A stretch of 64,000 bases of DNA from Pseudooceanicola sp. (GTDB lineage: Bacteria > Pseudomonadota > Alphaproteobacteria > Rhodobacterales > Rhodobacteraceae): assembly GCA_002709085.1 (NCBI GenBank), contig PAPR01000062.1:1-64000 (forward strand), in the 5' to 3' direction. The translations under genes and the position numbers were made by a program. The stretch's first letter is position 1, and each line of letters opens with the position of its first letter. The notes beneath the pieces were generated by a model. The model worked only from the letters and a program-made list of their open reading frames with translations, ran no database searches and had not been told where the DNA came from. This document shows positions 31,172-36,683 of the stretch, in pieces.

Positions 31172-31200
31172 TTTACCCTGTGGCGGGCTGGACCTATAAG
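31172..31200 (+). promoter_or_regulatory. Candidate promoter for ileS leader
   Basis: TTTACC-N17-TATAAG. Confidence 0.5.
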
Positions 31201-31210
31201 GCGGGCCAAG

Positions 31211-31258
31211 ATGGGATGCTTTGCGATCATCATTCGAATTATCAGCCCGGCGCTCTGA
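31211..31258 (+). CDS. Candidate Ile-rich leader peptide MGCFAIIIRIISPAL upstream of ileS
   Basis: ATG GGA TGC TTT GCG ATC ATC ATT CGA ATT ATC AGC CCG GCG CTC TGA; five Ile codons in six; stop 84 bp before ileS. Confidence 0.6.
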   Translation: MGCFAIIIRIISPAL

Positions 31259-31342
31259 CAGACGAGCCGCCGGGTCAAGGCGTATGGATGCCCGCGCCGA
31301 TTTATCCCCTTTCCCGAATATCTGACAGACGGAACGCCCGAA

Positions 31343-34249
31343 ATGAGCGCCGAGACTCCCGACTACAAACAAACGCTGAACCTTCCCAAGACCGATTTCC
31401 CCATGCGAGCCGGATTGCCCAAGCGCGAGCCTGATTGGCTGGCCAAGTGGGAAAAGATCGGTGTCTATGACCGCCTGCGTGAAAAGGAGGGCCGCGCGCC
31501 CTTTGTGCTCCATGACGGCCCACCCTATGCCAACGGGCATTTGCACATCGGTCATGCGTTGAACAAAATTCTGAAAGATATGGTCGTGCGTTCACACCAG
31601 ATGATGGGCCATGACGCGCGCTATATCCCCGGTTGGGATTGTCACGGTCTTCCGATTGAATGGAAGATCGAAGAGCAGTACCGCAAAAAGGGCAAGAACA
31701 AGGACGACGTGCCTGTCGTCGATTTCCGTCAGGAATGCCGGTCTTTTGCCGAAGGCTGGGTCGATATCCAGCGCGAAGAATTCAAACGTCTGGGGATCAC
31801 CGGCAATTGGGAAAACCCTTATCTGACGATGGATTTCCACGCCGAACGTGTCATCGCCGAAGAATTCATGAAATTCCTGATGAACGGGTCGCTCTATCAG
31901 GGCTCGAAACCCGTGATGTGGTCGCCCGTTGAAAAGACCGCGCTGGCCGAGGCGGAGGTTGAGTACCACGACAAGGAGAGCTTTACCATTTGGGTGAAGT
32001 TCAAGGTCGTGGGCACGGGCGATGCGACGCTGGATTCCGCACAGGTGGTGATCTGGACCACGACCCCTTGGACCATGCCGTCTAACAAGGCGGTGGTTTA
32101 TGGCGAGAGCATCTCTTACGGGCTGTATGAGATCACCGGGCGACCCGAGGAATGCTGGGTCTCTATCGGGGATCGCTATATCCTGGCGGATGATCGCGCG
32201 GCCGATGTTTTGGGGCGCGCCCGTTTGGAAGAAGGCATGTATCGCCGATTGTGCGATGTGACCCAGGACGATCTGGCCAAGATTTCGTTGCATCACCCGC
32301 TGGCCGGGGCCGAAGGCTCCAATGGCGAATGGGATGACATCCGTGATTTCCGCGCCGCCGATTTCGTCACCGACACCGAAGGGACCGGGTTCGTGCATTG
32401 TGCGCCATCCCACGGGATGGAGGAATACGACCTTTATCGCGACCTCGGGATGTTGGAAAAAGTCATCACTTATAACGTGATGGACGACGGGTCGTTCCGT
32501 GCGGATTTGCCCTTCTTTGGGGGGAAATACATCCTGAACCGCAAGGGCGGCGAAGGGGATGCCAATAAGGCCGTGATCGACAAGCTGATCGAGGTTGGCG
32601 GTCTGCTGGCGCGTGGCAAGATCAAGCATAGCTATCCGCATTCATGGCGCTCCAAAGCGCCGATCATCTACCGCAACACGCCGCAGTGGTTCGCGGCCAT
32701 CGACAAGCCGGTTGGCGGAGATGACACCCATGGCAAAACCATCCGGGAACGGGCGCTGACCAGCATCGATAGTCTCGTGAAATGGCATCCGCAGACGGGG
32801 CGTAACCGTTTGTATTCGATGATCGAATCCCGTCCCGACTGGGTGCTGTCACGACAGCGCGCCTGGGGTGTACCGCTGACCTGTTTCGTGAAGAAGGGCG
32901 CTTTGCCGACCGACGCGGATTATCTGCTGCGCGATGACGCCGTAAACGCCCGTATCGCGGAGGCCTTTGAGACCGAGGGCGCGGATGTCTGGTACGCCGA
33001 GGGGGCGAAGGACCGCTTCATCGCCGATGCCGCGGACCCGGAGGCCTATGAGCAGGTGTTCGACGTGCTCGACGTGTGGTTCGATAGCGGCTCGACCCAC
33101 GCCTTTGTGCTGCGCGACCGCGCGGACGGGGCTGCGGACGGGATCGCGGATGTCTACCTCGAAGGGACCGACCAGCATCGCGGCTGGTTCCACTCCTCGA
33201 TGTTGCAGGCCTGCGGCACCAAGGGGCGCGCGCCTTACCGCAACGTGGTGACGCACGGCTTCACGCTGGATGCCAAGGGCAACAAGATGTCCAAATCGCT
33301 TGGCAATACCATCGTGCCCGAGAAGGTGGTCAAGGAATACGGCGCCGATATCCTGCGGCTCTGGGTGGCGCAGGCGGATTATTCGGCCGATCAGCGCATC
33401 GGGCCGGAGATCCTCAAGGGCGTCGCGGACAGCTACCGGCGGTTGCGCAACACCATGCGTTTCCTGCTCGGCTCGCTCAACGGTTTTGACGAGGCCGATC
33501 GCGTGGCCCCCGAAGAGATGCCGGAACTGGAACGTTGGGTGCTGCACCGTCTGGCCGAGCTCGATGACGTCGTGCGCGAGGGCTATGCCAGCTACAACTT
33601 CCAGTCGATGTTCCAGGCGGTCTTCAACTTTGCCACGGTGGAGCTTTCGGCCTTCTACTTCGACATCCGCAAGGACGCGCTTTACTGCGACGGTGACACG
33701 TTGCGGGCGAAATCGGCGCGCACGGTTCTCGACATCCTGTTCCACCGCCTGACGACATGGCTCGCCCCGGTGCTGGTCTTCACGATGGAGGAGGTCTGGC
33801 TGGAACGCTTCCCCGGTGAGGGCTCCTCGATCCACCTCGTCGATTTTCCCGAGACCCCGGCGGCATGGCGCGACGCGGCGCTGGCGCAGAAATGGGGTCG
33901 CGTCCGCCAAGCCCGGCGCGCGGTCACGGCGGCGCTGGAGATCCAGCGCACGGACAAGGTGATCGGCGCCTCGCTGGAGGCCGCGCCGCTGGTCCATATC
34001 GCTGAGCCCGAGATGCTGGAGGCGCTGAAATCCGTCGCCTTCGAGGACATCTGCATCACCTCGGACATCGACCTCACCGGCGATCCCGCCCCGGACGAGG
34101 CCTTCCGCCTGCCCGAGGTGCCGGGCGTCGCCGTGGTCTTTGAACGCGCCGAGGGCGAGAAATGCCAGCGCTGCTGGAAGATCCGCCCCGATGTCGGCAC
34201 TCATACCCATGCCGGGACCTGCGCGCGCTGTGACGCCGCACTCGGTTGA
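31343..34249 (+). CDS. ileS: Isoleucyl-tRNA synthetase
   Basis: [40 protein letters not shown]-terminal CQRCWKIRPDVGTHTHAGTCARC zinc motif. Confidence 0.97.
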   Translation: MSAETPDYKQTLNLPKTDFPMRAGLPKREPDWLAKWEKIGVYDRLREKEGRAPFVLHDGPPYANGHLHIGHALNKILKDMVVRSHQMMGHDARYIPGWDCHGLPIEWKIEEQYRKKGKNKDDVPVVDFRQECRSFAEGWVDIQREEFKRLGITGNWENPYLTMDFHAERVIAEEFMKFLMNGSLYQGSKPVMWSPVEKTALAEAEVEYHDKESFTIWVKFKVVGTGDATLDSAQVVIWTTTPWTMPSNKAVVYGESISYGLYEITGRPEECWVSIGDRYILADDRAADVLGRARLEEGMYRRLCDVTQDDLAKISLHHPLAGAEGSNGEWDDIRDFRAADFVTDTEGTGFVHCAPSHGMEEYDLYRDLGMLEKVITYNVMDDGSFRADLPFFGGKYILNRKGGEGDANKAVIDKLIEVGGLLARGKIKHSYPHSWRSKAPIIYRNTPQWFAAIDKPVGGDDTHGKTIRERALTSIDSLVKWHPQTGRNRLYSMIESRPDWVLSRQRAWGVPLTCFVKKGALPTDADYLLRDDAVNARIAEAFETEGADVWYAEGAKDRFIADAADPEAYEQVFDVLDVWFDSGSTHAFVLRDRADGAADGIADVYLEGTDQHRGWFHSSMLQACGTKGRAPYRNVVTHGFTLDAKGNKMSKSLGNTIVPEKVVKEYGADILRLWVAQADYSADQRIGPEILKGVADSYRRLRNTMRFLLGSLNGFDEADRVAPEEMPELERWVLHRLAELDDVVREGYASYNFQSMFQAVFNFATVELSAFYFDIRKDALYCDGDTLRAKSARTVLDILFHRLTTWLAPVLVFTMEEVWLERFPGEGSSIHLVDFPETPAAWRDAALAQKWGRVRQARRAVTAALEIQRTDKVIGASLEAAPLVHIAEPEMLEALKSVAFEDICITSDIDLTGDPAPDEAFRLPEVPGVAVVFERAEGEKCQRCWKIRPDVGTHTHAGTCARCDAALG

Positions 34250-34398: not shown

Positions 34399-34452
34399 AT
34401 GACCGGCATCCTTTGGCAGGGGCACCAGATCGGAGGGCGATGGCGCGGGTGA
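34399..34452 (+). CDS. Candidate trp leader peptide MTGILWQGHQIGGRWRG
   Basis: Two Trp codons in 17, AAAAAGGGG Shine-Dalgarno, upstream of trpE(G) with GC stem-loop between. Confidence 0.55.
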   Translation: MTGILWQGHQIGGRWRG

Positions 34453-34479
34453 TCCGTCGCTGACCCTTTCCCTGTTCCT

Positions 34480-34520: not shown

Positions 34521-36683
34521 ATGACCGATCTTACTTACCGAACCGACGGCGGCCTGACCATCACGCGCCGCGAGGTGCCTGCCGATTATCACCGTGACAC
34601 CGACCGGCTGGCGGAGCAGCTCGATTCACATCGCGGCGCGTTGTTTTCATCGAATTACGAATATCCGGGCCGCTACACCCGTTGGGAATTCGGCTTTTCC
34701 GAGCCTCCCGTGGTGGTGGAGGCACGCGGCCGCCAGATGCGCATCGCCGCGCTCAATCCGCGCGGGCGTGTCCTGCTAACGATGATGCGCGACGTGGTCG
34801 AAGGCTTGCCAGAGGTGGTGGATTTCACCGCTGCCGAGGAACAGTTCGATCTGCGCATCGCCGAACCCGACCGGGTCTATAACGAAGAGGAACGCTCTCG
34901 CGCGCCCTCGGTTTTCACGGTCCTGCGCGCCCTCGTGGGGCATTTCAAATCGGATGAGGATCACCACCTCGGCCTTTACGGTGGCTTTGGCTATGACCTC
35001 GCATTCCAGTTCGAACCGATCGAATTCCACCTCGAACGGCCCGCGGATCAGCGTGATCTCGTGCTTTTTCTAGCTGACGATCTGCTGGTGGCGGATCATT
35101 ACTCCGCCAGTGCCGTGCGCTATCGCTACGAGTTTTCCGACGGCACGCAGCGCACCGACGGGTTGAGCGGCGGCGGCGAAGAGGTCGCCTTTCAGCGCGG
35201 ACGCCAGGATGTGCCGCGCGGCGATCACCAGCCCGGCGAATATGCCGAACTCGTTAAGGAGGCCAAGAAAAGCTTCGTGCGCGGCGATCTCTTTGAGGTT
35301 GTGCCGGGGCAGGTGTTTTACGAACCCTGCAAGGACAGCCCCTCGGCCATCTTCAAGCGGTTGAAAAAGATTAATCCCGCCCCCTTCGGTTTCATCATGA
35401 ACCTCGGCGACAGCGAATATCTGGTGGGCGCCAGCCCCGAGATGTTCGTGCGCGTCACCGGGCGGCGGGTCGAAACCTGCCCGATTTCCGGCACCATCAA
35501 GCGCGGCGCGGATGCTATCGAGGACAGCGAACAGATCCTCAAGCTCTTGCAATCCAAGAAGGACGAGAGCGAACTGACCATGTGTTCCGACGTCGATCGA
35601 AACGACAAGAGCCGGGTGTGTGACCCCGGTTCCGTCCGCGTCATCGGTCGGCGTCAGATCGAGATGTATTCACGCCTGATCCACACCGTCGATCATATCG
35701 AGGGGCGGCTGCGCGCCGGGATGGACGCCTTTGACGCCTTTCTCAGCCACGCATGGGCGGTGACGGTGACGGGCGCGCCCAAGCTCTGGGCGATGCGGTT
35801 CATCGAAAAGCACGAGAAATCGACGCGTTTCTGGTATGGTGGGGCCATCGGGGCCATCGGCTTTGACGGCGACATGAACACCGGACTGACCCTGCGCACC
35901 ATCCGGATCAAGGATGGCGTGGCCGAGGTGCGCGCCGGCGCGACCCTGCTTTATGACAGCGACCCCGACGAGGAAGAGGCCGAGACCGAGCTGAAGGCCA
36001 GCGCCATGCGCGCCGCCATTCGCGGCGATGTCGCCAGCAATGAGCGGGGCGGCGATGATTGGCGCCTTGCGAAAGGCAAGGGGCGGCGCATTCTGCTGGT
36101 CGATCACGAAGACAGCTTTGTGCACACGCTGGCCAATTATTTTCGTCAAACCGGGGCCGAAGTGCTGACGACACGGTCGCCGGTGGATGAAGAGGTCTTT
36201 GCCGAATTCCGTCCCGATCTGGTGGTTTTGTCGCCGGGGCCGGGGACACCTGGCGATTTCGATTGCAGCGCGACACTCGACAAGGCGCTTGCGCGCAATT
36301 TGCCGGTTTTCGGGGTTTGCCTCGGAATGCAGGCGATTGCCGAACATTTCGGTGCGGATTTGATCCAGCTCGACGTGCCGATGCATGGCAAACCGTCGCG
36401 GGTCGATGTGTGCGATCCCGGATTGGTCTTTGACGGATTGCCGGACCAGGTGACCATCGGGCGCTATCATTCCCTGCACACAAAGCCAGAAACCTTGCCG
36501 GATGTTTTACGTGTGACGGCGACCACGGCTGATGGCGTCATTATGGGATTGCAACATCGCGATCTGCCGGTTGCGGCTGTGCAATTCCATCCTGAATCGA
36601 TCATGTCGCTGGGTCAGGACGCGGGCATTCGGATGATCGAAAACGTCGTCAGTCTACTCGTTGCACGGAACACGTCACAATAA
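34521..36683 (+). CDS. trpE(G): Fused anthranilate synthase component I/II
   Basis: TrpE core [36 protein letters not shown]-terminal GATase [25 protein letters not shown]. Confidence 0.96.

Follow-up and report, generated by a model that had tools for sequence, protein, structure and literature searches.

The stretch of Pseudooceanicola sp. DNA analysed here (64,000 nucleotides of contig PAPR01000062.1, referred to as the window) carries an ileS gene at positions 31343–34249, identified as encoding isoleucine-tRNA ligase (TIGR00392, 779.5 bits against a cut-off of 621.4). This gene and all features described below lie on the forward strand. Upstream of the ileS start codon (ATG, 31343), which is presumably the start of the controlled gene, we identified a short open reading frame (31211–31258, with its ATG at 31211 and a TGA stop codon at 31256–31258) that would encode the peptide MGCFAIIIRIISPAL. 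It is near-leaderless and lacks a Shine-Dalgarno sequence: the gap between a -10 hexamer, TATAAG (31195–31200), and the ATG is 10 nt. A 17-nt spacer separates this hexamer from TTTACC (31172–31177), which is -35-like by resemblance to the consensus only; TTTACC or CTGGAC is found here in many relatives, and a strict sigma70 scan gave zero matches.

Within the reading frame, an Ile-Ile-Ile codon run (ATC ATC ATT, 31226–31234) is followed by the core CGA-ATT-A-NNNN-CCCGGC (31235–31251), in which the rare codons CGA (Arg) and ATT (Ile) precede the 5' arm of a hairpin at a fixed spacing. In this hairpin (1:2, 31246–31274), CCCGGCG (31246–31252) is complementary to CGCCGGG (31268–31274), which places the 5' arm inside the reading frame and the stop codon in the loop. 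A second hairpin (3:4, 31279–31298, of the form GGYG..TGR / YCG..CRCC) and a pyrimidine-rich, G-poor segment (31299–31330), by its base composition a possible Rho loading region, complete the leader. An earlier note on this DNA had proposed an isoleucine-responsive leader peptide at this place, and the coordinates that it named, the promoter hexamers, the reading frame, the repeats and the ileS start all agree with the window sequence.

The ileS loci used for comparison were retrieved via the IleS protein and not via the leader motif, and the set is therefore unbiased towards the motif. The leader was present at 30 of 30 loci (the genome of the window and 29 relatives) and at 71 of 80 further loci from named genomes; the nine loci without it include two that are cut within the gene (L076 and L078). 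A 17-nt pattern, CGAATTANNNNCCCGGC, occurs a single time in the window genome, at ileS, and is shared by 35 of 36 genomes from its family, the Rhodobacteraceae, for which the reversed pattern gave zero matches. A covariance model of the core detected the leader in the window genome with E = 3.7e-12, the next best match having E = 0.2; the leader in the window is far from chance. Applied to genome samples, the same model had matches in 92 of 385 genomes from the class (E <= 0.01) and in 67 of 349 from the phylum (E <= 0.001), 66 of the 67 belonging to the same class. The leader is conserved across the Alphaproteobacteria and almost confined to that class. The sole match outside the class in the phylum sample (G527:C6:594488-594539, E 2.9e-4) may reflect chance or transfer.

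In several of the genomes that have no core before ileS, the gene directly follows a ribF-like gene, which we take to be ribF (L270–L273), suggesting that the leader goes with ileS genes that have their own promoter. A search for near-identical DNA among plasmids returned matches in the flanking coding stretches only. When the leader loci were compared with Rfam 15, no family matched the leader at the gathering threshold and only tRNAs were found in the loci; a T-box covariance model had no match, whether at the gathering threshold or with E values of up to 10.

Of 180 nonredundant leaders, 98.9% have an ATG-started frame that continues into the core, compared with 6.1% and 7.8% for the other two frames, and from this conservation the leader reading frame is almost certainly translated. 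No purine-rich Shine-Dalgarno sequence precedes the leader ATG in the 180-leader comparison. A profile of 178 leaders contains a TATAAT-like box at -13 to -8 of the ATG, and the base preceding the ATG is C in 75% of leaders. Among 77 nonredundant leaders from Rhodobacterales, 60 have 6 or 7 nt between the end of the -10 box and the ATG, and this promoter geometry implies that the leader mRNA is probably effectively leaderless. The near-leaderless, Ile-containing reading frame upstream of ileS, as first proposed from the window, is thus a conserved feature of the ileS loci counted above.

At codons -3, -2 and -1 before the Arg codon, Ile is found in 50, 63 and 60 of the 77 Rhodobacterales leaders, respectively. 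The wobble base in this run varies, chiefly in the middle codon (ATC 37, ATT 23, ATA 3), so that it is isoleucine itself that is conserved. The comparison of ileS 5' regions across Rhodobacterales to which the earlier note had pointed thus returned a conserved reading frame and conserved Ile codons with varying wobble positions. The Arg-Ile pair that follows is encoded by CGA in 76 of 77 and by ATT in 77 of 77 of these leaders; in the same ileS genes CGA accounts for 1.4% of the codons for Arg and ATT for 10.4% of those for Ile. Beyond Rhodobacterales, the Ile run becomes shorter and the CGA-AUU pair remains. Upstream of CGA, the share of Ile is 30% in the leaders of Rhodobacterales, 13% in the remaining ileS leaders and 11% in leaders preceding an ACT-domain gene (ACT leaders, see below), against 2–5% in the other frames of the same leader groups, and neither Val nor Leu is enriched upstream of CGA in the leader reading frames. 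The Ile-Ile-Ile run is therefore a Rhodobacterales elaboration, and what is universal in the leader is a single Ile codon in a fixed position. With the run bound to a lineage and the Arg-Ile pair kept, the window presents an elaborated form of the leader: the run on which the first proposal was built persists in Rhodobacterales, but it is the CGA-AUU pair, and not the run, that is universal.

The peptide tail R-I-[TSIM]-x-P-[AV] is kept in nearly all leaders, as would be expected if the nascent tail stalled the ribosome in the exit tunnel on binding of a ligand. We regard such arrest as highly improbable, since invariance at the level of codons (CGA and ATT) is unexpected from a constraint on the peptide, P-A is accounted for by the CCCGGC arm, and the tail is preceded by 8–20 unconserved residues. 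The question is raised why a 7-nt coding sequence, CGAAUUA, is practically frozen across a class. If it formed one half of a local helix, sites complementary to it would be expected in excess, and ileS leaders show no such excess. Mimicry of a tRNA T-loop (TTCGAAT) by the core was dropped as an explanation, since beyond Rhodobacterales the base preceding CGA varies.

The distance from the first base of AUU to the start of the stem of hairpin 1:2 is invariant at 8 nt. Across 64 Rhodobacterales leaders, 97% of the alignment cells over hairpins 1:2 and 3:4 are paired, and 50 cells are changed on both sides, compared with 13 in shuffles. Four pairs of hairpin 1:2 have compensatory changes in these relatives, in agreement with the pairing of CCCGGCG and CGCCGGG noticed in the window. 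Hairpin 3:4 is 97.5% paired in Rhodobacterales, with compensations from GGCG/CGCC to GGTG/CACC and from GC to AU (14 and 27 cells). In other alphaproteobacterial leaders the lower five pairs of hairpin 1:2 (CCCGG/CCGGG) are practically invariant; the upper stem varies freely yet stays paired (0.87, compared with 0.65 in chimeras). The fold of the single window sequence is not exceptional (z = -0.23), and the structural evidence for the leader is comparative rather than drawn from that fold. Taken over the aligned leaders, the element is real, coding and structured.

An alternative pairing between GGCGT (31279–31283) and ACGCC (31334–31338), which had been suggested to reach the ileS start region, is present in the window sequence but in just 1 of 21 congeners, and we reject it; the region contains the covarying hairpin at 31279–31298 instead. 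Sequestration of a Shine-Dalgarno sequence before ileS is not conserved among the leaders, and control at the level of ileS translation, as the earlier note had considered, is therefore unsupported.

The motif is found in a second context as well. Among 122 classified motif loci of the class, a number that includes repeated fetches of one place, 62 lie before ileS, 38 before a family of open reading frames of approximately 100 residues, and 22 are other or unclear. Members of this family have weak matches, below the cut-off, to acetolactate synthase small subunits. A confident AlphaFold2 model (pLDDT 88.9) has a beta-alpha-beta-beta-alpha-beta fold, and its best PDB match is IlvN with valine, by which the second target is predicted to be a small IlvN-like ACT-domain protein. 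The ACT gene mostly starts 73–84 nt after the core and is found in many Alphaproteobacteria outside Rhodobacterales (for example L127:1501-2015, L147:1507-1912 and L204). Several genomes have both an ileS leader and an ACT leader. The short ACT gene is absent from the relatives of the window, where weak matches lie in longer reading frames that probably correspond to IlvH. The leader thus stands before ileS, as first described, but is not private to this gene.

Roughly half of the ACT leaders have a reading frame that continues across the hairpin and into the ACT gene, with an overlap of 14–44 nt at the ACT start; this is hard to reconcile with a simple terminator model. Such an overlap resembles translational coupling, and with the few regulatory codons found outside Rhodobacterales it would suit a constitutive leader, in which the reading frame and hairpins set a basal level of expression (through leaderless loading, mRNA stability or coupling) and sense nothing. 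A leader of this kind is very unlikely in our assessment, given that Ile, and not Val or Leu, is enriched in front of two genes that both belong to branched-chain amino acid metabolism and that the sequence constraint is extreme across the class.

Further arrangements of the motif were observed. In 30% of ACT leaders, compared with 6% in shuffled sequences, the hairpin is followed within 32 nt by an ATTCG-type partner of CGAAT. Such partners lie 8–21 nt after the hairpin in leaders such as L135, L147, L172, L192 and L241; with CGAAT they possibly form an outer helix. Tandem cores approximately 200 nt apart precede the ACT gene at L183 and L194 (G068:C1:64968-65211 and G295:C1:3488920-3489163). 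Another group (L123–L126, L209, L230 and L235) has the core and hairpin, good -35 and -10 elements and a leaderless ATG (for example MTWRQNSAYIARITTPA, ending at a stop codon), and no ileS or ACT target; the next reading frame on the same strand is NTF2-like, and Ile is not enriched in these leaders. Loci L157–L159 combine a leader MWMM(C/W)GTRRISCPA, ending at a stop codon, with a perfect hairpin, and no ileS or ACT gene was found just downstream.

Taken together, we consider it likely that the leader is a cis-acting leader-peptide element which couples ileS expression to the charging state of tRNA-Ile. Its best-supported function, as judged from the sequence comparisons, is that it probably lets the cell sense a shortage of isoleucine. 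Transcription would start at or a few nucleotides before the leader AUG, and a ribosome would load on the leaderless start, translate the Ile-rich stretch and arrive at the slow pair CGA-AUU. When Ile-tRNA is scarce, the ribosome is expected to stall with AUU in the A site. In this position the P site starts at the C of CGA; from this base it is 11 nt to the start of the stem, a distance that falls within the usual ribosome footprint. With the 5' arm inside the footprint, the stalled ribosome would keep hairpin 1:2 open, and ileS expression would presumably rise. When Ile-tRNA is ample, the ribosome would proceed (in Rhodobacterales, to stop inside the hairpin), and once it has passed AUU, hairpin 1:2 and then hairpin 3:4 would fold and reduce readthrough into ileS. 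In other Alphaproteobacteria, ileS and the IlvN-like ACT gene may together form a small branched-chain amino acid regulon.

Several observations sit uneasily with isoleucine sensing. The hairpin would stay free if the ribosome stalled at the first Ile codons of the run; CGAAUUA and CCCGG/CCGGG are more strictly invariant than codon sensing and a hairpin would require; and the fact that several congeners have leaders without the Ile run, with few or no Ile codons beyond the Arg-Ile pair, counts against it. Conservation of these two segments far beyond the needs of the peptide, and a CGAAUUA without a local pairing partner in ileS leaders, could point to autoregulation by an RNA-binding protein, for instance by IleRS binding to a tRNA-like feature, comparable to the case of E. 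coli thrS, the reading frame being secondary. We hold this to be distinctly unlikely, because the frame is kept open in nearly all leaders, Ile is specifically enriched with synonymous variation, the element also precedes the ACT gene, and no tRNA-like or other Rfam family was matched.

How hairpin formation would be read out depends on what follows it. A search for intrinsic terminators found none in the window, in accordance with the first impression that no strong terminator is present, and TTTT does not occur within 12 nt of hairpin 1:2 in any of 76 Rhodobacterales leaders, so that one of the features that define a classical attenuator is lacking. In such an attenuator, 3:4 (or 1:2) would be the intrinsic terminator and 2:3 an antiterminator selected by the Ile-stalled ribosome. 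Segments 2 and 4 do share CGCC/CRCC and compete for GGYG, and 2:3 can pair in 97.7% of cells; this pairing is, however, just 4 bp long and without covariation. Outside Rhodobacterales, 18% of ileS leaders have TTTT within 12 nt of the hairpin (2.5% in shuffled sequences), and U-rich tails follow hairpin 1:2 in Rhizobium, Agrobacterium, Methylocella and some ACT leaders. On balance, we view classical attenuation as a rather unlikely description of the leader. The segment between hairpin 3:4 and the start region in Rhodobacterales leaders consists of 38% C and 16% G, and such a C-rich, G-poor tail suggests compatibility with Rho. For the isoleucine-sensing leader, the readout is most likely transcriptional, the output in Rhodobacterales being hairpin-stimulated pausing or Rho-dependent termination over this tail, which is the least certain step; in Rhizobiaceae, it may be partly intrinsic, at the U run after the hairpin. 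More tentatively, and at a level of confidence that falls short of even, we propose a class-wide leader RNA: a leaderless mini-gene whose single hungry pair of rare codons, CGA-AUU, set at a fixed distance from a hairpin of invariant sequence, would act as an isoleucine sensor for ileS and the IlvN-like ACT gene, without a terminator or Shine-Dalgarno sequestration, via Rho or a recognized RNA core.

Control of aminoacyl-tRNA synthetases at the RNA level is well described for Gram-positive T-boxes, and little is described in Alphaproteobacteria. The leader resembles the trpL, hisL, ilvL, leuL and enteric pheST attenuators in its short reading frame with cognate codons, in hairpins that overlap the end of this frame, and in a target from the cognate pathway. 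It differs from them in that it has no conserved intrinsic terminator, is effectively leaderless, requires in essence a single Ile codon, placed at a fixed spacing, and targets an aminoacyl-tRNA synthetase in Alphaproteobacteria. This raises the question whether one codon pair and one hairpin replace the codon runs and terminators of other leaders. The leader would define a small isoleucine regulon reaching from marine roseobacters to rhizobia, relatives of Brucella and methylobacteria.

The trpL/rnTrpL attenuator of Sinorhizobium meliloti, in which the mRNA starts at the leader AUG, is likewise alphaproteobacterial and leaderless with a short leader peptide, but senses Trp, has a clear terminator that releases an sRNA, and uses other codons and another structure (PMC10117765). 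The ileS T-boxes of Actinobacteria also exert control by tRNA-Ile charging at the RNA level without an intrinsic terminator, and differ in binding the tRNA directly and having no reading frame (PMC1262725). Mycobacterial cys leader peptides are conserved and lack a terminator as well, with a poly-pyrimidine stretch suggested as a Rho site, but they carry Cys codons, belong to another phylum, and have no reported invariant hairpin (PMC1262725). An attenuator survey by Naville and Gautheret does not mention ileS (PMC2965389), and no description of the ileS leader element was found in the literature searched, whose coverage excludes subscription journals. Ribosome profiling of Caulobacter crescentus lists an 'ileS leader CDS', CCNA_03934, solely as a negative control and without sequence analysis or function (Schrader et al., 2014; PMC4117421). 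As a small translated CDS upstream of ileS in an alphaproteobacterium it is like the leader, and is possibly the same element.

Downstream of ileS, the window contains another small reading frame (34400–34453; MTGILWQGHQIGGRWRG, ending at a stop codon), for which Rfam had zero matches in the region. It has two Trp codons and lies approximately 70 nt upstream of a TrpE-TrpG-fusion-like gene (34521–36683), and is a candidate trpL-like leader.
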